23,285 bases of DNA from a virus, in IMG/VR virus record IMGVR_UViG_3300034524_000034, positions 1-23,285 of that record; one strand, 5' to 3'. The notes under the pieces are model-generated. The model was not told the origin of the DNA. It worked only from the letters and a program-made list of their open reading frames with translations, and searched no databases. This document shows, in pieces, positions 7,550 to 23,029 of the stretch. Positions within the stretch are counted from its first letter, which is position 1. Each line of letters starts with the position of its first letter. A program made the position numbers and the translations under genes.

Positions 7550-8037
7550 TAGTCATCATCTCCAAACTGTACAACAACAGCCGATAATGACTTGCTGCCA
7601 CTTATTTGAGCAATAAGATCATCTAAATACCGATTAGCATAATAAATAGAATCATTAATTGCTTCTGGTCTTTTTTCAAGCGATTTGATCTCAAATGTCA
7701 ATGTTTTAAAGTTAATAGCATCACGATTCAATTCATCTTTTAGCTTCATTAAGTAAGCCCTATAAGCATAATATGATGCTAAATACTTCTCTGAACTGGA
7801 TAGATCTTCTTCAATCCCCATCATTTTATTGACGACCACAGTTGTAGTTACACCAGCTTCATCAGTCACTTGGGTTTCAATATCTTCATAATAAAAATTA
7901 ATGTTTATATTGAGTGCCATTCCTGTTTCAATTAGCCCACGATAAGCAAGAGTGCTGTCTTCTGCTATTTCAGTTTTATAATCATCTGGGATAAGTGGTA
8001 GCATCATATCCATAATTGAATCTAATGTAGTTGCCAT
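7549..8037 (-). CDS. putative head-tail connector/adaptor protein
   Basis: A 162-residue protein two genes after the major capsid protein, the usual slot of the first head-tail connector that binds the portal ring. N-terminal SIMDMMLPLIPDDY and central SSEKYLASYYAYRAYLMKLK give a mostly helical profile, consistent with adaptor proteins of the gp6/gp15 type. Start ATG follows AGGAGGGTTAA. It ends in Asp-Asp-Asp and its stop overlaps the next start. No diagnostic motif; call is positional and based on the helical pattern. Confidence 0.5.
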   Translation of the reverse strand: MATTLDSIMDMMLPLIPDDYKTEIAEDSTLAYRGLIETGMALNININFYYEDIETQVTDEAGVTTTVVVNKMMGIEEDLSSSEKYLASYYAYRAYLMKLKDELNRDAINFKTLTFEIKSLEKRPEAINDSIYYANRYLDDLIAQISGSKSLSAVVVQFGDDD

Positions 8038-8046
8038 TTAACCCTC

Positions 8047-8478
8047 CTAAATCAAAACACTACCTTCTGATAGCTCCTTGATTTTATCCTCAATTTCAGC
8101 AATAAACTTTTCAGTCTTACCAAGCTCAATAGCCTTTACTCTAATATCTTTTAATAGTGTTGAACTATCAATATCATCAAGTTTTTTCTTGAAAGTTGTC
8201 AATGAATACCCAAGAAGTTTCTCGATATCTTCATTCGACATTACATTTTGACTCTCAATTTTTTCGTTGGCAATTTTTTCATCGATGTCAACAACCTCAA
8301 GAAAACCTTTTGAAAATGAGCCGGGACATTGTGTTGTCAAATACATGTACTCATCTTCTGTCAATGGGACAACTGTATTTGGCTTAAGTGACAAATGTTT
8401 TCCTTCTGTTACAAAATCAAGCGATAAACCAAAATCACTTCTTGATACGTTTTTTACCTTTACCATCTTTTCAGCCAT
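8047..8478 (-). CDS. unknown head-region protein with helical C-terminus
   Basis: A 143-residue protein right after the major capsid gene and its terminator. The N-terminal half (about 1-70) is beta-like (VKVKNVSRSDFGLSLDF, then KPNTVVPLTEDEY), and the C-terminal half is charged and helical (SNEDIEKLLGYSLTTFKKKL, IEDKIKELSEG). I do not recognise the family. The helical C-terminus could be a protein- or DNA-binding tail, and many phages have a small accessory protein here. Start ATG follows AAAGGAGAAGG. The promoterless position behind a terminator suggests lower expression than the capsid gene. Confidence 0.6.
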   Translation of the reverse strand: MAEKMVKVKNVSRSDFGLSLDFVTEGKHLSLKPNTVVPLTEDEYMYLTTQCPGSFSKGFLEVVDIDEKIANEKIESQNVMSNEDIEKLLGYSLTTFKKKLDDIDSSTLLKDIRVKAIELGKTEKFIAEIEDKIKELSEGSVLI

Positions 8479-8497
8479 TGTATATTCCTTCTCCTTT

Positions 8498-8525
8498 AAA
8501 AAAAATAGAAGGGGATGCCCCCTTC
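8498..8525 (-). terminator. intrinsic terminator after major capsid gene
   Basis: On the minus strand GAAGGGG pairs with CCCCTTC (7 bp, 4-nt loop) and is followed by TATTTTTTTT. It starts only a few bases past the major capsid stop codon; the ribosome binding site of the next gene (AAAGGAG) begins immediately after the T run. Confidence 0.88.
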
Positions 8526-8528
8526 ATA

Positions 8529-9470
8529 TTAACCAGTAATCTCAATTACGTATAGACCTTCTGGCTTAGTTACACAATAGCCAAGTTCACGGTCAATTCG
8601 ACAGTTCCAAGATTTATCATCAATATCTGTTTCTTGCAAGAAGTCATAATCTCCATAAGAAGCAGCATAACCAATTTTCTTCCCAACAAGCATCAACTTA
8701 TCAGTTGGAACAATTGATTTCTGAGATACAGGATCAAGGATTTCAGGTAAGTACAGGATATCGCAACCACGATATCGTCCTAACAGACCTTTATCACGAA
8801 TTTCATTATACAGTGATTCACATTCAGAGAATCCAGTAAACCCTTCAATCTGAGTACAAATATCAAAATCCGCAATGATTGTTGGGGCAGAGCCAGTTTT
8901 CTTACGAATATAGTTAATGCCAGCATCTAAGGCAGTTTTATCCAAAGCATTTACAGCCTTGTAATTATCTGAATTAGAAGTAGCGTTATACGCCTGTGCT
9001 AGAATTTCATATACTCTCTGATAAATAGATGTTTCAATTGCATCTTTACCATCTTTAATCAGTGAAGCAAGACTATCTAACCGACCTGTTTTAAGTTCTG
9101 ACAGTAGTGCTTCAGGACGAACACCCAATGCTTCAAATTCCATTGTGATTTCCGTATCATAATTTCGTGACTTAGGCACATATGAATTTGGTGCTGTCCA
9201 ATAGGCAGTTACACCTTTTTTCTTGGTTTTGAAAATTGGTTTATCACCATAACTAAAATGTTTTGTATCAAACAATTTCGGTGAAATATCAAAAGTGTTA
9301 TAACTATCTTCAAGAGAAATTTTAACAACTTCCGCTAACTCAGTTCTTCCGTCTTCAGTTTTCATCATTTCAGCAATGATTTTCTGAGCTTCAAGAACTC
9401 GTTTATCATCTCTTTTTATTTCATTTCGCTGTAATTTCTCAGCCAATGTAACAATATCTAAACTCATCAT
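8529..9470 (-). CDS. major capsid protein (HK97-fold type)
   Basis: A 313-residue protein, about the usual size for an HK97-fold capsid subunit. The N-terminal ~90 residues are helical and charged (LAEKLQRNEIKRDDKRVLEA); the rest alternates helices and strands, with a TIIADFDICTQIEG segment, YRGCDILYLPEIL, and a C-terminal RELGYCVTKPEGLYVIEITG ending, a pattern common in phage major capsid proteins (late strand near the end with EGLYVIE). It follows a protease-scaffold and a decoration-like gene, and precedes a strong terminator, in keeping with high dosage. ATG ATG start after GGGGG. Whether the N-terminal part is removed by the protease cannot be read from sequence. Confidence 0.88.
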   Translation of the reverse strand: MMSLDIVTLAEKLQRNEIKRDDKRVLEAQKIIAEMMKTEDGRTELAEVVKISLEDSYNTFDISPKLFDTKHFSYGDKPIFKTKKKGVTAYWTAPNSYVPKSRNYDTEITMEFEALGVRPEALLSELKTGRLDSLASLIKDGKDAIETSIYQRVYEILAQAYNATSNSDNYKAVNALDKTALDAGINYIRKKTGSAPTIIADFDICTQIEGFTGFSECESLYNEIRDKGLLGRYRGCDILYLPEILDPVSQKSIVPTDKLMLVGKKIGYAASYGDYDFLQETDIDDKSWNCRIDRELGYCVTKPEGLYVIEITG

Positions 9471-12662: not shown

Positions 12663-14282
12663 CTATCTTCTACTTACCAACATTAGGGCGCTTTGATTAC
12701 TTTTATCTTCTTCTCGTTCTTTTGCTATCTGAAGAAGACCGTATAAGCCCATGCCTAATGCAGACCATCTATCTTTTCTTTTTGATTTTGTTTTAAAGGC
12801 CATCCAACCATTACTGACACCTTTTGGTTCAATGTTCATAAGTTCCATACGTGTCGCTTCTGATTCCATGACAAGTTGTCGTTCTTCAAGTTCAAGATCA
12901 CGTTCTTCCTCAATATTAAATGGGTACAGATGAATCCATTTTTTCTCTGTGTAATTTTTTATTGCATATCCCATTCGATGATTGATCTCTTGAGTGGCCT
13001 TAATCCCATAAATAATAGGAATTCCTTTTGTTTGTTCAATCTTGTCCATGGCAGTCTTATCATTCATGTCAATTAGCGGTGGATACCACTTTTCATTATC
13101 AACGCAGTAATAATCTTTTGCAAGTTCATCTGACAACCCTTGACCAATCGTCATAGTATCTTGGAATATTCTTATAACATTAGGGAATTTTCTTAACACT
13201 TCTCTAACATTATCAGCCTGCTCGCTAAATGGCATACCGTTTAATGACCTCAGATAAACAAGATCTGCTTCACAGTGATCAACAAACCAGTGTAATTTAA
13301 AAACATAAATAACAGTATTATCCTTGCCCTCTACACGGGCAACGTCAACTGACATAATATACTCAAATTCATCATATCCACTTGTTTCAATATGTTTCAG
13401 ATCTGAACACTCTTGTATATCTTCATAATCAACCCATGCATTTTTTACGAGCCTTGGGAATCTGCCAAGATATTCCATTTCAAATTCCATTTCGCTCATG
13501 ACTGATCGCTGTTGCTTAACAATTTCCTCATCAAATAAACCGCATCTTACACCAACAGTATATGGCAATGTCATGGCAAAATATTTTGTATTGTCTGGTT
13601 CAGTCATTCGTTTAACATAATCTACAAATAGAGCATATAAATGATTGAATCTGTAATTTGCTGTTGATGTTAAAAGGAGTTTATTCCCCTCATAGTCATC
13701 TTGAGATTTTCCAACCACATAACCACGCTTTACAATCATCATTGGCTTAACAACTGTTTCAATTATGAACTTTGGCACATAAGCCGTTTCATCAATCAAG
13801 ATTACATGAAGTCTAGCACCTCGAATCTTTGAACCATCCGTCCCAATTGGGAATGCTTCGATCCATGAACCGTTAAACCATTCAATTCTTGCCTTTTGCG
13901 TACTACACACATAATTTTGTTCTTCCTGTTCAAGAAATGGCGACAATCGGCATAATTCATCCTTATATTTTTCTTGAATTGCCAATTTACCCTGTCTAAA
14001 TGCAGGAGCAACAATACCTGCTTTGGTATTGGGGTTTAATAAGCAATAAACAACCAAACATAAAACCCCTAACCATGTTTTACCAGTACCACGACACAGA
14101 ACCCAGCAATTAAATGAAAACCTAAAAAAAGCCCTCATAAGGACTTTCTGATATAGATTCAATTTTATCCCCATTACATCTTCTGTAAATTCATCAGGAT
14201 ATCTTTTGAAATATTCAACTGCTTCTCTATATATCTCTTTTTTAAAATTAAGGAGCCTTGCCCCTTCTGTCTTTTTCTGCAT
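12663..14282 (-). CDS. terL: terminase large subunit (ATPase-nuclease)
   Basis: The packaging motor, 539 residues. Seen in the sequence: Walker A-like VLCRGTGKTW (61-70, Lys68), Walker B VILIDE (160-165, Asp164-Glu165), a coupling motif LTSTAN (204-209), then a C-terminal RNase H-like nuclease with SVDVARVEGKDNT (Asp313) and RIFQDTMTIGQGL (Asp375). These are in the normal order for a large terminase that cuts concatemeric DNA and pumps it through the portal. The ATG shares one base with the TAA of the small subunit gene (TAATG), so the two subunits are translationally coupled. Full length; no defects seen. Confidence 0.96.
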   Translation of the reverse strand: MQKKTEGARLLNFKKEIYREAVEYFKRYPDEFTEDVMGIKLNLYQKVLMRAFFRFSFNCWVLCRGTGKTWLGVLCLVVYCLLNPNTKAGIVAPAFRQGKLAIQEKYKDELCRLSPFLEQEEQNYVCSTQKARIEWFNGSWIEAFPIGTDGSKIRGARLHVILIDETAYVPKFIIETVVKPMMIVKRGYVVGKSQDDYEGNKLLLTSTANYRFNHLYALFVDYVKRMTEPDNTKYFAMTLPYTVGVRCGLFDEEIVKQQRSVMSEMEFEMEYLGRFPRLVKNAWVDYEDIQECSDLKHIETSGYDEFEYIMSVDVARVEGKDNTVIYVFKLHWFVDHCEADLVYLRSLNGMPFSEQADNVREVLRKFPNVIRIFQDTMTIGQGLSDELAKDYYCVDNEKWYPPLIDMNDKTAMDKIEQTKGIPIIYGIKATQEINHRMGYAIKNYTEKKWIHLYPFNIEEERDLELEERQLVMESEATRMELMNIEPKGVSNGWMAFKTKSKRKDRWSALGMGLYGLLQIAKEREEDKSNQSALMLVSRR

Positions 14283-15091
14283 TAACTCAACATCTCCCTT
14301 GTGGAATTAAGGATAGTGTCGATCAGAAAATCAATCTCATCTTTTTCGTATTCTTTTTTCTCAACCTTAAACTCGCCCTCGGACACTTGTTTATCCATCC
14401 ACACAGTAAACTTATTTTGTGCCATATCCTCTCTAGCGTTTCTTTGTTTTTTAGTCCATTTCATACTTTCAAGTGTAGATTGGAGTTGGTCTGACAGTTT
14501 CTTTTCATCATTAATATCTACAAGCTTGCCAGCTGCTCTTTTAGTATCAATCCTATGAAGCGCTATTTCCAAGCTTAAGATACGTTTTAACAATGTCTTA
14601 TCAGCACCGTCATTGATCTCATACTGATCAAAGTATGACGTATATCTCTTTATCATATAATCACGTTCTACAGGATTAAATGACTTTATCCATGCTGTAA
14701 CTTCATCATTGTGAACCTCGTTCTCAAAGTAAATAGCATCATCAGCCGACAATATACTGTCAGGTTCATTAATATTTGATATTTCTTCTTCATCACGAAT
14801 TGCTTGAGCCTTTTTGCGATATTGAGCTAATCCCATTAATTTAAAGTATTGGGTCACTGGATTTGTGATTACATTACTCACTGGTCGCCTTGAAATGACT
14901 TCATTCCCATCTCTATCAGTGACTTTTTTTTCAATTATTTGTTGGTTTTTACCCTCGTTTGCCTTGCATAATTCAACCGCTCTATTCCAGCATTCTTCCA
15001 AAAATGGGAGTTCAGTATCAGCATTGTTTAATAAATAATCTTCCAGCTCTTGCCTAGTGTGGAGTTCTGGCCTTTTGCTTCTTCTAGCCAT
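14282..15091 (-). CDS. putative terminase small subunit
   Basis: A 269-residue charged, helical protein directly before the large terminase gene, the standard location of the DNA-recognising small subunit. The region about 60-100 (SNVITNPVTQYFKLMGLAQY) resembles the segment of P27/phage terminase small subunits that follows their first helices, but no clear helix-turn-helix can be pointed out by eye. The C-terminus is highly charged (KVEKKEYEKDEIDFLID). ATG start after AGGAGG. The length is above the common 130-200 residues, so an alternative is a different DNA-packaging cofactor. Confidence 0.7.
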   Translation of the reverse strand: MARRSKRPELHTRQELEDYLLNNADTELPFLEECWNRAVELCKANEGKNQQIIEKKVTDRDGNEVISRRPVSNVITNPVTQYFKLMGLAQYRKKAQAIRDEEEISNINEPDSILSADDAIYFENEVHNDEVTAWIKSFNPVERDYMIKRYTSYFDQYEINDGADKTLLKRILSLEIALHRIDTKRAAGKLVDINDEKKLSDQLQSTLESMKWTKKQRNAREDMAQNKFTVWMDKQVSEGEFKVEKKEYEKDEIDFLIDTILNSTREMLS

Positions 15092-15100
15092 ACATACCTC

Positions 15101-15256
15101 CTATACTGGGATACCAGCTTCTATTTCTAAAACCTTCACATGATCATCCTCAATTAAAATCATTGTATGTGGATGACAATTGTCAATCAACCATTCGATA
15201 ATTGGACAAGAGAGTTCCTCTAACTCATCAAGCTTTTGCTTATTTAGCTGATTCAT
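15101..15256 (-). CDS. small phage protein with CPIIEWL...HPHT pattern, 51 aa
   Basis: A 51-codon gene between terminase small subunit and two other short genes. It begins MNQLNKQKLDELEELSC and contains CPIIEWLIDNCHPHTMILIE, then ends IEAGIPV. From memory, short proteins with 'P-hydrophobic-I-x-W/F-L ... HPH' next to terminase genes are common in Gram-positive phages, though no function is known to me. ATG has GAGGTGAAGTAA just upstream (GAGGTG, five bases away). The two flanking genes are within 20 bases, which argues for a polycistronic message. Confidence 0.7.
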   Translation of the reverse strand: MNQLNKQKLDELEELSCPIIEWLIDNCHPHTMILIEDDHVKVLEIEAGIPV

Positions 15257-15272
15257 TTACTTCACCTCAGCT

Positions 15273-15386
15273 TCAATCTAACTTCAAGTCAACTTCAAAG
15301 TCAACCTTATCCACATCTTCATTTCCACCTGTGTATTGAATTGCTTCAACCACTTCTTCAGTCTTTAAATTTAAATATTTTTCCAT
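15273..15386 (-). CDS. 37-aa peptide resembling truncated paralogue of next gene
   Basis: A 37-codon frame with a perfect GGAGG seven bases before the ATG. Residues 11-20 (EVVEAIQYTG) resemble the VTIEAVQWTG near the N-terminus of the neighbouring protein encoded at 15399-15647; after that the sequence becomes acidic and stops. It may be a remnant of a duplicated gene, or a genuine micro-protein; the good ribosome site and conserved spacing favour translation. The C-terminal part (VDFEVDLKLD) has a direct repeat-like pattern (GTTGACTT twice in DNA). Confidence 0.55.
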   Translation of the reverse strand: MEKYLNLKTEEVVEAIQYTGGNEDVDKVDFEVDLKLD

Positions 15387-15398
15387 TTAACCTCCATG

Positions 15399-15647
15399 TT
15401 AATCTACTTTTTCATACGTCTTTTTAAAAATATCAGGTTTGCATGGATAGTATTCTCCATCCACGCCCCTGATAATAAAATCACCAATACTAGCACACAT
15501 GTTCCCTTCAAGTGTTGAGATCGTAAGATTGTCATCACAATAAAAAACATATGATCCAGAATCACAAAAATTTTTTACTTCACAATGATTTTGACCAGTC
15601 CATTGAACAGCTTCAATTGTTACCGGCAGTTTTTTGTACTTTGCCAT
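15399..15647 (-). CDS. phage protein with PGDYG-like fold pattern, 82 aa
   Basis: Starts AKYKKLPVTIEAVQWTGQ and ends GEYYPCKPDIFKKTYEKV, with ASIGDFIIRGVDGEYYPC in between. This matches the frequent small phage proteins of the type 'K-x-K-P-V-x-I-E-A-x-Q-W ... GDxIIxGVxGExYPCKPDIFxxTYE', which I know as conserved but without a firm function. The ATG at 15647 is preferred to one at 15668 because AAAGGG lies six bases before it. It is the first gene after copy A of the 40-bp repeat, about 56 bp downstream of that element, and probably starts the transcript that carries the terminase genes. Confidence 0.75.
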   Translation of the reverse strand: MAKYKKLPVTIEAVQWTGQNHCEVKNFCDSGSYVFYCDDNLTISTLEGNMCASIGDFIIRGVDGEYYPCKPDIFKKTYEKVD

Positions 15648-16475: not shown

Positions 16476-16548
16476 TACATTTTGTCGTTTGTGTTGGCAA
16501 TATAGCGATTATTTTATTTTTTTTAAAAATAATTTTTATTTCATGTTT

Positions 16549-16601: not shown

Positions 16602-16642
16602 ATAAGATAAATAACATGTTCAAGTTATACATGTTATGCATG

Positions 16643-16659
16643 TTGTGCGAATACACAAG
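16643..16659 (+). repeat. quasi-palindrome 5' of recombinase gene
   Basis: TTGTGCGAATACACAAG: TTGTG and CACAA form an inverted repeat with 6 bases between them. A 14/17-identical copy lies past the recombinase gene at 17976-17992. Possible binding site of the recombinase or an autoregulator. Confidence 0.5.
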
Positions 16660-16680
16660 ATGAATAAAGGGGAAAATAAA

Positions 16681-17673
16681 ATGAATGGATTAATAACACA
16701 GAGAGATGAATTTGGATTGGTAACACTGAGAGATGATTATGCAGAGAGTTATACAAACACTCTGTCACCTGAAACTAAGCGAGCATATCTATCGACTATC
16801 AAGGAATTCTTTGGAGTTCACGATTTGCTTGACATCAAGGTTGATGATATGAAAGCTGTTACGCCTGACATGGCAAATGCATGGGCACATATATTGCTTG
16901 ACAAAGGTCAGGCAAAATCAACAATCAACAGAAAATTAAGTGCTATGCAGAATTTTTATGGCTTTATCAGTCGTAGATCAATCAGGATTGCTGAGTACAA
17001 CCCATTTGAGACAAAGGAAGGATGCATTAGATTTAGAGGGGCTACTAAAAGCTATAGCCAAAGAATTGCATTGACAGAGGAACAGATCAGCGCAATAGTG
17101 ACAGCCATTCCACAGGATAATTTTGAATCAAAGGCTGATATGCTTGTTGCCAAGAGAGATTATATTGTGATGGCGATCCTGATTACAGCAGGTCTAAGAC
17201 GAGCAGAATTGTGCAGTATTAATATTGGCGATATCATTCAGGTTGATGGGAAATATGTGATTAATGTGCTAGGCAAGGGTGATAAAACGAGAATGATGGT
17301 ATTAGCAAATTCAATTAAGCGAAAGATTGATGAGTATGTAAATCTTCGTGGAATAACTTATGATGATGTTGATGCTCCGCTGATTATTGGTCATGGTACA
17401 AACTCAGATCCCGATGCTCATGTGTCAGATGTCACAGTGGCAAGGATTGTCAAGAGATATACTAAGGCAGCCAATATCGACAGTAGACTTGTGTCACCAC
17501 ATACACTAAGACACACATTCTGTACTGAGCTGTTGAAGATGGGTGAAGATATTACAGATGTTCAGGATCTTATGGGACACGCCAGTGTGAGTACCACAAG
17601 ACGATATGACCACATTAACCGGACATTGGGAAGTAACAGTAGTGCTAAATTAGCAAAGAAATATGATATTTAG
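16681..17673 (+). CDS. tyrosine recombinase (XerC/D-sized integrase)
   Basis: A 330-residue site-specific recombinase. The N-terminal core-binding domain (about 15-110) is followed by the catalytic domain with all expected residues: Arg173 in AGLRRAEL, Lys202 in GKGDKTR, His274 and Arg277 in SPHTLRHTF, His300 in LMGHASVSTT and the nucleophile Tyr309 in RRYDHI. The ATG at 16681 is chosen over upstream starts because AAAGGGG is eight bases before it. The length and lack of an extra N-terminal arm-binding domain resemble XerC/D rather than lambda-type integrases. It is the only rightward gene near the divergent control region, so it could integrate the phage, or resolve multimers if the element replicates as a plasmid. 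Confidence 0.92.
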   Translation: MNGLITQRDEFGLVTLRDDYAESYTNTLSPETKRAYLSTIKEFFGVHDLLDIKVDDMKAVTPDMANAWAHILLDKGQAKSTINRKLSAMQNFYGFISRRSIRIAEYNPFETKEGCIRFRGATKSYSQRIALTEEQISAIVTAIPQDNFESKADMLVAKRDYIVMAILITAGLRRAELCSINIGDIIQVDGKYVINVLGKGDKTRMMVLANSIKRKIDEYVNLRGITYDDVDAPLIIGHGTNSDPDAHVSDVTVARIVKRYTKAANIDSRLVSPHTLRHTFCTELLKMGEDITDVQDLMGHASVSTTRRYDHINRTLGSNSSAKLAKKYDI

Positions 17674-17957
17674 TGGTGTGATATAAAAAATGCCGAGAAT
17701 GGCTTAAAGAATACCAAAAATTAACAGAATAGCCAATCTATATACAGATTTGCGAATATGGTTTCGATTTAAGCCCCTCTCGCTTGTTTTTAGTGCCTAC
17801 CCTAGTAAGTATACCTAATTTACGTTTTACCCCCAAAAATATTTGAATTAGAAGGCAAAAACGGCTATATGCGTGTTGCATTTGAAGTGATATATTCGAC
17901 ATGCGATAAATCAATGCATAAATTACACCACTTGCACTAGATGTGTATGTGGTGTTT

Positions 17958-17992
17958 CTTGTGCGTATGCGTAAGATGTGTGAATGCACAAG
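17958..17992. repeat. paired recombinase-site-like repeats 3' of integrase
   Basis: CTTGTGC (17958-17964) and GCACAAG (17986-17992) form a perfect 7-bp inverted repeat. The right part, ATGTGTGAATGCACAAG, matches 14 of 17 bases of the element before the integrase gene at 16643. The left part, CTTGTGCGTATGCGTAAG, is a further variant. These could be recombinase arm or core sites (attP candidate) or operators. Confidence 0.45.
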
Positions 17993-18018
17993 ACCAGTTA
18001 CAGATAAATCTCAGCCCC

Positions 18019-18132
18019 TTATATATATATATATATATATATATTAATTATATATATAATTATAATATATATATATTAATTATATATATAATTATAATAT
18101 ATATATATATTATATAAATTATTTATATATTA
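18019..18132. repeat. 114-bp pure A/T tract with 32-bp tandem repeat
   Basis: Not one G or C in 114 bases. It begins with alternating TA, then two 32-bp direct copies (18044-18075, 18076-18107), each holding the perfect palindrome TAATTATATATATAATTA. Such a tract would melt very easily and fits a DNA unwinding element; slippage during replication is an alternative origin for it. Confidence 0.8.
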
Positions 18133-18213
18133 CTCATTACATTCGTAATATATAAAATAATTTATTAGCGATAAACTGGAAATTTACCGCTGAAGTTAAA
18201 CAAACAAATTAAC

Positions 18214-18891: not shown

Positions 18892-18952
18892 TTATCCACA
18901 CAAACACAACACTTATCCACAGCCTGTTGATAACCTTTTACACTGTGGATAA
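18892..18952. other. DnaA-box cluster, candidate replication origin
   Basis: TTATCCACA, the consensus DnaA box, is present at 18892-18900 and 18913-18921 on the plus strand and as TGTGGATAA at 18944-18952 on the minus strand. TGTTGATAA at 18925-18933 is a one-mismatch box. Four boxes in 61 bp is far above chance. Such clusters mark host-DnaA-dependent origins or DnaA-regulated promoters. Two AT-rich 12-mers follow immediately. Confidence 0.65.
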
Positions 18953-19069: not shown

Positions 19070-19197
19070 CATGATTTTTCGCCATATAATGAAGAAAACA
19101 TTAATTAAAACATTTTAAATAGCCACAAAACAGCTGTATTATGCCATTTACACCACAGTTGTAACTAATTAGATACAATTATGTTACAATTTATCTA

Positions 19198-19267
19198 TAG
19201 ACTGATTATCGCTGACATGCTATACTTGCACCAAGTCAAGCGACACGGCGCCGGCATACCGGTAGCC
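19198..19267 (+). promoter_or_regulatory. weak promoter plus GC-rich hairpin
   Basis: TAGACT (19198-19203), 17-bp spacer, TATACT (19221-19226) make a moderate promoter. Just downstream GGC-G-CCGG, CATA, CCGG-TA-GCC (19247-19267) forms a strong hairpin, the most GC-rich piece of the region, followed after a gap by an A8 run and TTTTTT at 19273-19288. A short terminated RNA is possible. Confidence 0.35.
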
Positions 19268-19298
19268 CGAACTAAAAAAAAGTTTTTTAAAAAAAGTC

Positions 19299-19327
19299 TT
19301 GACAGTCTAACGCTTTCGTGATATCAT
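19299..19327 (+). promoter_or_regulatory. promoter P1 of accessory region
   Basis: TTGACA (19299-19304), exactly 17 bp, TATCAT (19322-19327). The spacer contains ACG-CTTT-CGTGA directly before the -10, matching the layout of promoter P2 127 bp downstream. Reads toward the small unknown gene at 19967 and the amidoligase operon. Confidence 0.75.
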
Positions 19328-19425
19328 GATGGCAAGTCAAACATCAATAGTTTTTAAGCGAAGCAAAATTCCCGCAGGAATGGCCAGGGGCTTGCATAGT
19401 AACTTAAGCGAGTTGAAAAAAAGAC

Positions 19426-19454
19426 TTGACATCCTCACGGAAACGTGAGATAAT
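19426..19454 (+). promoter_or_regulatory. promoter P2 with palindromic operator
   Basis: TTGACA (19426-19431), 17 bp, GATAAT (19449-19454). The spacer holds a perfect inverted repeat CTCACG-GAAA-CGTGAG (19434-19449) that touches the -10, a typical place for a repressor site. Confidence 0.8.
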
Positions 19455-19459
19455 AAGCA

Positions 19460-19950
19460 CAACAAACGAAACGGGTTCCCTGTTGACCCGAAAAACAGGA
19501 GGGCACCGCCTAAAACAGGTCATTGAAAACATAATATTAAAGGTAGTCGTGAGAAACCGACTAATCGCAGCAGAGAGTTGGAACGCCCACTGCGAACGCC
19601 TATAGGATTGACGACCCTATAAGGAATACAACCAACCTGTGAAAATCAGGAGGGGTATATACTGTGTGAGTCCGGTATATATGAAAATAGCACCGTTTGG
19701 TAGTTTAGGTGGATAAAATATAACACTACTCGACACTGTATTGTACGTAAAAATACAGGGCATTGGATGAATTCCTGGCCGAGTGCGGATATAAAATGAG
19801 CAATCATGGAAGTTCTACGCCTGATCAGGGATAAAGTACCGATTCCAAACGGGATAACTTATAAGATTTTATATGCCCATTGGTTTTTATAACAATGGGT
19901 ATTTATAAACCTTATGGGTTTAAAAATTATGGTGAGGATCACACTTAAAA
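19460..19950 (+). ncRNA. candidate structured leader or non-coding RNA
   Basis: About 500 nt between promoter P2 and the next gene, visibly richer in GC than its surroundings and without a good ORF. Hairpins readable by eye: CCTGTT/AACAGG (19479-19499), with an alternative CGGGT/ACCCG (19472-19490); TAGTCG/CGACTA (19544-19563); CGCAG/CTGCG (19566-19594); TATAGG/CCTATA (19601-19621); ATGCCCATTG/CAATGGGTAT (19873-19902, one G-U). No T run follows the last stem, so the RNA likely continues into the gene at 19967. It may be a long regulatory leader or one of the large phage RNAs; I cannot match it to a known class from sequence alone. Confidence 0.4.
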
Positions 19951-19966
19951 ATCAGGAGGATAAAAA

Positions 19967-20230
19967 ATGGTCTTAAATGAAAAAACTCGTCAAGAACTTA
20001 ATTCAATCTGTCAAAAATATTCAGTAATCAGTGAGCCACGGGCTATTGTGGGGCTTTATAAAGAGCTTGAAGCAAGGGGAATTATTATCCCATGTTGGGA
20101 TTGCTGGGCGGAAAATAGACCGCACCCCTTTGAAATTGCAGGATTTCCGGTAGAAAATAGCAATTTTATCCTGAAAAAATACCGGTTTGATCATTATAAT
20201 CGGGTAGAATATAATTGCTATTTCAGTTAA
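19967..20230 (+). CDS. unknown small protein, 87 aa
   Basis: An 87-residue protein with a strong ribosome site (CAGGAGGATAAAAA before ATG). It starts MVLNEKTRQELNSICQKY, has an IVGLYKELEARGIIIP helix-strand segment, then CWDCWAENRPHPFEIAGF and a Tyr/Asn-rich end. I do not recognise a family. The CWDCW pair of cysteines is a possible metal site or structural element. It is the first gene after promoters P1 and P2 and the long leader, and precedes a third promoter, so it may be expressed separately from the amidoligase genes. Base composition is like its neighbours. Confidence 0.75.
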   Translation: MVLNEKTRQELNSICQKYSVISEPRAIVGLYKELEARGIIIPCWDCWAENRPHPFEIAGFPVENSNFILKKYRFDHYNRVEYNCYFS

Positions 20231-20244
20231 AATTAAAAAAAGTG

Positions 20245-20274
20245 TTGACAAACTAAAACGACAAAGTGTATCAT
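20245..20274 (+). promoter_or_regulatory. promoter P3 before the 47-aa gene and amidoligase
   Basis: TTGACA (20245-20250), 18-bp spacer, TATCAT (20269-20274), the same -35 and -10 as P1. It contains an ACG before the -10 but not the full P1/P2 shared element. Transcription would enter the gene at 20295 some 15 bases later. Confidence 0.7.
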
Positions 20275-20294
20275 AAAACAAACAGGAGGGGAAA

Positions 20295-20438
20295 ATGGTA
20301 ATCTACAAAAAACGAGTTTATGACGGATTAATCAAGGGCTATAAATACGACCAATTACGAAACGTGGTATGGCTTGAAGGGCTGTTTTTAGTAAAGTTTG
20401 CAGGGTTTCATGAATATTACCATGATATAATACGATAA
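20295..20438 (+). CDS. unknown micro-protein, 47 aa
   Basis: A 47-codon frame directly behind promoter P3, with CAGGAGGGGAAA before the ATG. The peptide (starting MVIYKKRVYDGLIKGYKYDQ) is basic, rich in Tyr, with a hydrophobic WLEGLFLVKFAGF segment and HEYYHDIIR at the end. Too short for the usual gene caller, but promoter, ribosome site and start are ideally placed. No function is known; it is co-transcribed with the amidoligase gene unless the hairpin at 20463 stops transcription. Confidence 0.65.
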   Translation: MVIYKKRVYDGLIKGYKYDQLRNVVWLEGLFLVKFAGFHEYYHDIIR

Positions 20439-20462
20439 AAAGCAATACACAATATTCCAATC

Positions 20463-20495
20463 ATTGCCAATTTGATCAATACGTGAATTGGCAAT
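20463..20495 (+). repeat. perfect 10-bp inverted repeat before amidoligase gene
   Basis: ATTGCCAATT (20463-20472) and AATTGGCAAT (20486-20495) are exact inverted copies with 13 bases between. No T run follows, so it is not a standard terminator. It may be an operator, an RNA-stability hairpin or an attenuator. Confidence 0.6.
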
Positions 20496-20560
20496 AGTGG
20501 GGATATTCCCAAAAAAAATAAAAGGTGACGGATACACCATAAAACCGGAAAGGTAAAACA

Positions 20561-21973
20561 ATGGCTGAAAACACTAAAAGAATCTGTATGGATTGTGGCT
20601 GTGTAATCGAAGATGGTATGGATTTTTTAGAGGGCGATAATGGTATAGTTTGCGAAACGTGTATGGATGAATGGTGTTTTTGTGAATTTTGCGGGGATAT
20701 TCATAGGGATTATAGTTTTGTAAGAGCGGAGGATACAGGAACATTTGCCTGTGATTATTGCGCTGGACAGCATTTTTACCAATGTAACGAGTGCGAGGAA
20801 TATTTTGAACTCAATTATAATATTCACCAGGACGACTACGGCAATACACTTTGCGAAGACTGTTTTTATGATGGTTATACTATTTGCGAAAATTGCGGCG
20901 AAATTATCCACTATGATCATGCTCATGAATATGATGGCTACTCATACTGTAGAAGTTGTTTTGACGAAATTGATAAAACGCCCGGAAACATTAACAGTTA
21001 TGGATATAAGCCATACCCTGAATTTTTCGGAGGGGAAAATACAGGCGAGTTTACTTTCGGTATGGAATTAGAAGCCGGGAACGGGACTTTAAGCGGTTTA
21101 AGTGAGTTTTGCGAGTATGCAGATATGGATGAAATCTATCTAAAAGAGGATTGCACAATTCCGGGTTATGGCTGTGAAATTGTAACTCATCCAATGACAT
21201 TTTCATATTTAAATGGCTGTTTTGACCTTGAGTCCATATTACAATCGGCGAGACAAAATGGCCTAACATCTCATGATAATGGGGATTGTGGGTTACACCT
21301 CCATGTTGATAAGCGGTATTTTGGGGATGATGATATGACACAAAAATTCAATATTGCCAAAACAATCATTTTATATGAACGCCATTTTGATAATATTGTT
21401 AATTTTTCAAGGAGACAAGAGTATAAAATTGATAAATGGTGCAATTGTTCAAGCATTAGTCGTAGACAACACGACACCGCTAGAAGTCTTGCGGATAAAA
21501 TAAGTGACAAAATATATGAGGATGACCGCTACGAAGCCGTAAACCTTCAAAACGAAAATACAGTTGAGTTCCGTGTATTCAGAGGGTCATTATTAATGGA
21601 AACTGTCATGGCTTCAATCCAATTCACAAAAATAATTATCGACTTTGCAAAATCATCAACAATTGATGTATGCGACAATGCTACATGGGGCGATATCATG
21701 GCAACTGGATCAGAATTTAAAGAATTGCAATCATATCTTGCAAAACGTAATCTTGTTGAAGAGCCAACTTCAAAATTTAGAATTGTAAATGTGGTAAATC
21801 CGTTTACTGGTGAAGTTCAGGAAATGTTTGATGTGGAATATAGTGAATTTGAAAAACAGGCTGAAATTTTGGCCGATGAAAATGTATCCGCAATAGATGA
21901 TTGCCCACCACTTGTCATTAGCAATACAATAAATGCTGGTCATGGCAATAACCTAGCGTGGATAGCTATATAA
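20561..21973 (+). CDS. zinc-module-fused amidoligase (COOH-NH2 ligase family)
   Basis: A 470-residue two-part protein. Residues 1-140 carry eight CxxC pairs at 9-12, 31-34, 41-44, 64-67, 75-78, 98-101, 109-112 and 130-133, i.e. four tandem CxxC-N18/21-CxxC modules with a 32-34 residue period, expected to bind zinc like LIM/treble-clef domains. Residues about 160-400 match the amidoligase_2 family of the glutamine-synthetase-like superfamily: FTFGMELEAG (165-173), a conserved CEIVTHP (205-211), CGLHLHVD (243-250) and NTVEFRVFRGSL (333-344). These enzymes use ATP to form amide or peptide bonds. The ATG follows GGAAAGG. The next gene encodes a class II glutamine amidotransferase, a likely partner. 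The zinc part may bind a protein or nucleic acid substrate. Substrate unknown. Confidence 0.85.
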   Translation: MAENTKRICMDCGCVIEDGMDFLEGDNGIVCETCMDEWCFCEFCGDIHRDYSFVRAEDTGTFACDYCAGQHFYQCNECEEYFELNYNIHQDDYGNTLCEDCFYDGYTICENCGEIIHYDHAHEYDGYSYCRSCFDEIDKTPGNINSYGYKPYPEFFGGENTGEFTFGMELEAGNGTLSGLSEFCEYADMDEIYLKEDCTIPGYGCEIVTHPMTFSYLNGCFDLESILQSARQNGLTSHDNGDCGLHLHVDKRYFGDDDMTQKFNIAKTIILYERHFDNIVNFSRRQEYKIDKWCNCSSISRRQHDTARSLADKISDKIYEDDRYEAVNLQNENTVEFRVFRGSLLMETVMASIQFTKIIIDFAKSSTIDVCDNATWGDIMATGSEFKELQSYLAKRNLVEEPTSKFRIVNVVNPFTGEVQEMFDVEYSEFEKQAEILADENVSAIDDCPPLVISNTINAGHGNNLAWIAI

Positions 21974-22060
21974 AATAGCCGTAAATACAACAAAAAGAAA
22001 AACAAAATAGTATAAAATAACAAAAAATACAATTATAGAAAAGGTTAAAAAGGTGAAATT

Positions 22061-23029
22061 ATGTGTATTATCGCAGTAAAAAATAGTGGAGTAAAAATGC
22101 CCGATGAAAAATTGATTAGGAATATGTTTCAAAGAAACCCTGACGGGGCGGGTTTTATGTATCTCGACAAAAACAAGAATAAAGTGATCATTGAAAAGGG
22201 TATCATGGATGTTAAAACCTTCTTAAAGAAGGTGAAGCGTTTTGGTGTTGATGACTCGCTTGTTATGCACTTTAGAATTGGGACAAGTGGCGGTAACACT
22301 AAAGCTAATACACATCCATTTATGATTAGCGAAAACATCGAAGACCTTAAAAAACTCAAGGCTGTTACTGATGTTGGAGTAGTCCACAATGGCATAATTG
22401 ATATTATGCCACGAAAGGGGATTAGTGACACAATGGAATTTATAGCGGATAGATTAGCACATATTAAAATGGCTATGCCGGGATTTTATAAAAATAAACA
22501 CATACTAAAGTGGGTTGAGAATGAAATTGGATCAAAAATGTGCTTCTTAACAGAAAAAAATGAAATTGTCACTATTGGTGACTTTAACGAAAACGAAGGT
22601 GTTTTGTATTCAAATTACACATATGAAGAAAGTAAATATAAAAGCACAGCCATTAAACCATACTCCTATTATGATTATGATTGGGATAAGTTTAGCTGGA
22701 TAGATGATTATGATACTGTTGACGAAAAAGTCAACACGCTTAAAAACGATGGATTATTGCCCAAAACACAAGGTAGAATTGCAAGATTATGCTTTGTCCC
22801 TGACGATTGTTTTATTTTGGATGAGTCAGACGGTCAAATTTATGATTCTCTTGACTATGTAGTTGACGAGTGCCTTAATGTTTTTGGAATTGTAAATACA
22901 TCGTTTGAAAACGGATACATGGAAGTTGTTTACAATGAAAACTTGCAACTGATCAAAGATGACGATTATGTAAAAGATCTTAATTTTGACAAACTTGATT
23001 TTGATTATTTCTATGAGCTATTCATGTAA
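22061..23029 (+). CDS. class II glutamine amidotransferase-like (Ntn hydrolase) protein
   Basis: A 322-residue protein beginning MCIIAV, so removal of Met would expose Cys2 as the N-terminal nucleophile, as in GATase class II enzymes (GlmS, PurF, YafJ-like). Supporting motifs: NPDGAGF (26-32), HFRIGTSG (70-77), THPF (84-87), VVHNGII (107-113) and SDTMEF (122-127). The first ~190 residues hold the domain; the remaining Asp/Tyr-rich part (about 200-322, with DDYDTVDEK and LDFDYFYELF) is not recognised. Such domains release ammonia from glutamine or cleave gamma-glutamyl bonds. The gene is 87 bp after the amidoligase and in the same direction. AAGGTG lies before the ATG. Direct channelling of ammonia to the amidoligase is inference. 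Confidence 0.85.
   Translation: MCIIAVKNSGVKMPDEKLIRNMFQRNPDGAGFMYLDKNKNKVIIEKGIMDVKTFLKKVKRFGVDDSLVMHFRIGTSGGNTKANTHPFMISENIEDLKKLKAVTDVGVVHNGIIDIMPRKGISDTMEFIADRLAHIKMAMPGFYKNKHILKWVENEIGSKMCFLTEKNEIVTIGDFNENEGVLYSNYTYEESKYKSTAIKPYSYYDYDWDKFSWIDDYDTVDEKVNTLKNDGLLPKTQGRIARLCFVPDDCFILDESDGQIYDSLDYVVDECLNVFGIVNTSFENGYMEVVYNENLQLIKDDDYVKDLNFDKLDFDYFYELFM

Follow-up and report, generated by a model that had tools for sequence, protein, structure and literature searches.

A stretch of about 490 bases lies between two strong promoters and the accessory operon of a siphophage, raising the question of whether it encodes a structured RNA and, if so, whether this RNA stands free or leads the transcript of the operon behind it. 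The initial annotation had left both possibilities side by side, as a regulatory leader or a large ornate RNA. The DNA analyzed here (the window) is a complete virus record of 23,285 bases, in which the late genes (tail, capsid, portal, and terminase) occupy the minus strand, and a tyrosine integrase (16636-17673), a non-coding stretch, and the accessory operon follow one another on the plus strand. The standard bacterial code is used in the window, and its capsid and terminase have distant relatives in Bacillus phages Slash and Stahl, SPbeta-like phages, and Microcystis phage MaeS.

Promoters and gene setting

Two plus-strand promoters, P1 (19299-19327; TTGACA-17-TATCAT) and P2 (19426-19454; TTGACA-17-GATAAT), each depart from the sigma-70 consensus at a single position (11/12) and carry an extended -10 (TG before the -10), in agreement with the two strong promoters that had been proposed ahead of the stretch. 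A third one of the same type, P3 (20245-20274, plus strand; TTGACA-18-TATCAT), lies farther downstream, and a AAAAAAAGNCTTGACA-like upstream element is common to all three. The spacer of P1 contains an operator-like repeat, CTAACG-CTTT-CGTGA (19307-19321), and that of P2 contains, in the same register, a perfect inverted repeat, CTCACG-GAAA-CGTGAG (19434-19449). The sequence CTMACGNNNNCGTGA occurs exactly at only two places in the window, namely P1 and P2, at equal distance from the -35 (expected number with up to one mismatch, 0.21). This in-register operator repeat, limited to P1 and P2, supports the view that they are real and co-regulated promoters, and the set of P1, P2, and P3 looks like promoters under a single repressor, whose gene is not in the 23,285-base fragment.

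Between the integrase and the operon, three exact TTATCCACA DnaA boxes and one with a single mismatch are clustered within 61 bases (18892-18952), which is probably a replication origin or a DnaA-binding region. Long runs of TA/ATATAT repeats, a low-complexity sequence with very strong fold scores, were also observed after the integrase gene (17940-18120). The first gene of the operon, ORF87 (87 aa; 19967-20230, plus strand, ATG at 19967), has no match in Pfam or PHROG, and a search for its relatives was also empty. Because its RBS (AAAATCAGGAGG, 19948-19959) lies 20 nt upstream of the ATG, ORF87 would be read from the RNA of the stretch, P3 coming only after the end of ORF87. The following plus-strand genes encode a 47-aa ORF (20295-20438; RBS CAGGAGGGG, no Pfam match), a 470-aa Amidoligase_2 protein (20561-21973), and a possible class-II glutamine amidotransferase-like protein that is below the Pfam cut-off (22061-23029). 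The adjacency of the amidoligase and this amidotransferase-like gene (20561-23029) is a further feature of the accessory operon.

Coding capacity and predicted fold

No ORF of at least 60 aa is present in 19460-19950, and the shorter ones are mechanical, none having an RBS at the proper position relative to a start. A hidden gene was ruled out under table 11, TAG=Q, and table 4. GC content is 0.43-0.45 over 19300-19700 versus 0.31-0.36 immediately upstream and 0.33-0.39 downstream, and the earlier description of about 500 nt of GC-rich, ORF-poor sequence thus stands, with no credible gene in about 490 bases. The improved limits of this structured, untranslated plus-strand stretch are about 19461 (the P2 start) to 19947.

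The minimum free energy of the stretch is -132.5 kcal/mol (z -3.2 against dinucleotide shuffles). Since dinucleotide-shuffled energies are a blunt measure, confident base pairs were also counted as a sharper test. The plus strand has 81 local pairs with P>0.9, a number reached by none of 100 shuffles (21.7 +/- 13.0), and nine local helices of at least 5 bp, again reached by none of 100 (2.7 +/- 1.7). By confident pairs it ranks first among the 49 plus-strand 485-nt tiles of the window, and the strands are clearly biased (81 pairs on the plus versus 34 on the minus strand). The signal is weaker in 150-nt windows (best -3.4 at 19810), and energy alone would not pick out the stretch because neighboring regions at 16500 and 17700-18200 (the latter due to AT repeats) also have strong fold scores. 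It is conceivable, albeit unlikely, that the stretch has no RNA function and is a spacer or a decayed gene next to an origin of replication, its inverted repeats acting at the DNA level or having arisen by chance. The DnaA boxes 500 bp upstream and the non-coding, strongly folding AT repeats of 17700-18200 would fit this explanation, as would the unconserved primary sequence and the lack of strand bias in the related phage discussed below, whereas the top rank and strand bias of the fold in the window, and its position, flanked precisely by strong promoters and an RBS, argue against it.

At least six hairpins had been read initially, and the predicted plus-strand fold places six at 19472-19682, together with a domain at 19693-19852 and another hairpin at 19856-19920. 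In the 5' hairpin (19472-19508), whose 3' arm carries the SD-like AACAGGAGGG, CGGGUU/GACCCG is replaced by CCUGUU/AACAGG: the former (about -7.6 kcal/mol) would form first, followed by CCCUGUU/AACAGGAGGG with its flanks (-16 kcal/mol). The two forms are about 8 kcal/mol apart, and the stronger one wins once its 3' arm is transcribed, so that the early one should be an intermediate of folding and the pair not a balanced switch. The mutually exclusive hairpin pair noticed earlier is real on paper. Next to it are the hairpins UAGUCG/CGACUA (19544-19563, P 0.94), UCGCAG/CUGCGA (19565-19595, P 0.90), UAUAGG/CCUAUA (19599-19624, with the loop region GGAUUGACGACCC), CCUG/CAGG (19636-19650, overlapping a second SD-like sequence, AUCAGGAGGGG), and GUAUAUACUG/CGGUAUAUAU (19655-19682, P 0.97). 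The domain at 19693-19852 is closed by an 8-bp long-range helix, CCGUUUGG/CCAAACGG (P 0.56), and contains, beside others, a hairpin at 19736-19758 (P 0.97). Finally, the near-palindromic 65-nt hairpin at 19856-19920 consists of two 10-bp helices (-22.7 kcal/mol) and is not followed by a T run.

The SD-like AACAGGAGGG is located some 35 nt downstream of the P2 start and has an anti-SD pairing energy of -10.8 kcal/mol; it is mostly paired in the predicted fold, as are the SD-like sites of the stretch in general (mean unpaired 0.23-0.25). An excess of SD-like motifs was rejected, as they are no commoner than in shuffles. No ORF lies at a normal distance behind AUCAGGAGGGG beyond a GTG-TGA start-stop. 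A switch controlling the operon, either an attenuator or riboswitch-like and with leader peptides, might be suspected from the alternative 5' hairpins, the two SD-like sites within hairpins, and a possible 11-codon frame (MKIAPFGSLGG*, 19681-19716) behind the second of these sites. However, such a switch would have no terminator to form, its 5' alternatives are too unequal in energy as given above, no SD-start pair has a usable reading frame, and no Rfam riboswitch matches, which makes this the least probable of the explanations considered.

The equivalent region in a related phage

Single-protein scans identified one related contig (L002, belonging to phage record G001), and alignment scans added another (L011), which ends in an AT-rich stretch before the position of the putative leader. 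G001 (74,176 bases) is the only relative found that spans this position; its capsid, portal, terminase, and integrase are 74%, 65%, 61%, and 42% identical to those of the window, respectively. The closest cellular relative recovered was a distant prophage, L012, in a Clostridia genome bin, with neither the integrase nor the early region, and a portal profile detected nothing more in about 1,180 overlapping genome searches around its host (391+394+398). The layout of the distantly related phage Slash is different.

At the equivalent place, G001 has an AT-rich stretch and then an 11/12 promoter (contig L006, 7726-7755), followed by about 570 non-coding bases (about 7764-8330; fold z -6.5). The operon behind encodes, among others, LPD11 and the antirestriction protein ArdA (ardA). 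Among the tiles sampled there, this stretch is the top one on the plus strand and the minus strand is equally high; because this excess of structure comes without strand bias, a DNA-level role in G001 is possible. A 39-nt repeat was also observed flanking the G001 stretch (7704-7742 and 8315-8353, 77% identical, TAACGTGTTGACAT exact), the second copy of which may be an operator instead of a promoter since it has no -10 at the right distance.

Sequence similarity between the two stretches is faint, and no convincing alignment was obtained. The chain score of their collinear short matches was reached in 32 of 1500 and 26 of 1500 shuffles (p ~0.02), and a single-sequence covariance model of the 5' part of the window stretch ranked the G001 stretch first in 20 kb (E 0.22), whereas a model of the 3' part found nothing in G001. 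The loop sequence GGAUUGACGACCC recurs in G001 with one difference, as a GG/CC-closed loop. Shared loop motifs in the same order (AUUGACRA, ACGUAAAAA, and GAUUCCAAA) were rejected, as about 2% of shuffles and other window tiles match their score. No peptide worth calling is common to the two stretches; the best match was short and gapped (E 0.003 in 626 nt). DNA homologues in phages or plasmids were not found, and no second homologue in the collections searched was similar enough to test covariation. These results support a common position and a common character of the two stretches; descent of the RNAs from a common ancestor is conjectural. We consider it rather improbable that the two represent a hitherto undescribed class among the large structured RNAs of phages, heading an early counter-defence operon in a rare siphophage lineage and changing in sequence almost beyond recognition.

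Two other G001 loci were recorded. Next to its leader, a small ORF (MLDKVLNLLDRLLKFLTTKKRPMIAIHISIKVVIIRKR) with a very strong RBS, an overlapping hairpin, and a facing promoter-terminator arrangement (8452-8565) has the appearance of a type I toxin-antitoxin pair. A possible tRNA-repair or tRNA-replacement island at 13567-15548 brings together four tRNA-like genes, an RtcB RNA ligase gene, and a drum RNA (RF02958, 53 bits).

Possible function and comparison with known RNAs

Rfam 15 gave no match to the window at the gathering score, none with E<=0.5 to the stretch at lax settings, and no known RNA family for the G001 stretch. Membership in the ROOL, GOLLD, OLE, or HEARO families, which had been suggested initially, was not borne out, as their covariance models matched nothing at the gathering score or at E<=5. 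An undescribed class of free-standing large structured RNA, acting in trans in the manner of ROOL and GOLLD, would agree with the size of the stretch, its elaborate fold and long-range helix, the lack of an Rfam match, and the structured non-coding stretch at the equivalent place in G001. However, no consensus intrinsic terminator is present on the plus strand over 19074-20600 (although a terminator may depart from the simple consensus), no more than 30 nt separate the last hairpin from the RBS of ORF87, size and loops are unlike between the two phages, and the 23-kb window, itself a fragment, contains no tRNAs, in contrast to typical ROOL and GOLLD sites (PMC12286853). On balance, a free-standing RNA appears doubtful.

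A promoter lies directly upstream of the stretch and an RBS and ORF directly downstream, with no terminator between. Since no intrinsic terminator precedes ORF87, a leader is more likely than a free-standing ornate RNA, and the leader half of the initial interpretation fits better: a structured non-coding stretch that follows two strong promoters and opens an accessory operon, with a similarly placed structured stretch in G001, is retained, without the four named families. We regard it as a real structured leader, unclassified and of putative function. The specific model of a cis-acting structured 5' leader of about 490 nt in a repressor-controlled early accessory operon has, in our judgment, about an even chance of being right; transcription, cis action, and the role of the fold are inferred in it. 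P1 and P2, sharing one operator, would be released together, and the transcript would open with the stack of hairpins and, meeting no terminator, continue into ORF87 and the downstream genes. Most likely, folding of the nascent leader would keep the polycistronic mRNA transcribed and intact, for instance by protecting the 5' end from exonuclease, possibly aided by the ribosome-binding-like AACAGGAGG near this end; alternatively, the fold may have an antitermination-type effect on the polymerase. Sequence data do not discriminate between mRNA protection and antitermination.

Provided that the fold exists and has been maintained by selection, it would constitute a new RNA element setting the expression of the first genes of the phage, including, in G001, an antirestriction protein. 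To our knowledge, few RNA elements that protect or extend early phage transcripts are known outside lambdoid phages, and the leader would then offer a concrete case in phages of low-GC Gram-positive-type hosts.

Among known systems, put of the lambdoid phage HK022 and EAR of Bacillus are RNA antiterminators that act in cis immediately downstream of a promoter, either an early phage promoter or that of an operon. Both are much shorter than the leader, and EAR is an Rfam family that is unmatched here; the leader shares with them a structured RNA directly after a promoter, a position that fits antitermination. Type III toxin-antitoxin RNAs consist of 30-40 nt tandem repeats followed by a terminator and then a toxin gene; this type was rejected, as the stretch has no tandem repeat family and no terminator, and neither Pfam nor PHROG has a family that matches ORF87. 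tRNA islands are often found near ROOL and GOLLD, both large phage RNAs (PMC12286853). A further trait of ROOL is its homo-oligomeric RNA cage. The leader resembles ROOL in its large, elaborate fold and its phage or prophage origin in a low-GC Gram-positive-type setting (ROOL cryo-EM: PMC12286853), but it has no tRNAs nearby in the window and, lacking a terminator, is probably not a discrete RNA; in G001, the tRNAs are 5-7 kb beyond the leader, whereas ROOL often lies by tRNA islands. GOLLD, likewise a large structured phage RNA, is larger (usually >800 nt, often adjoining tRNA islands; PMC12286853), and the conserved 3' region of its model is unmatched in the window. The STAB-SD of cry3A is an SD-like 5' element that protects a Bacillus mRNA from 5' decay (PMC4113751). 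The leader differs from it in that its SD-like sites are predicted to be paired and are not enriched and in being far larger than such protection needs, but the two have in common a long 5' UTR, an SD-like sequence (AACAGGAGG in the leader) that lies close to the 5' end and has no reading frame, and stem-loops.
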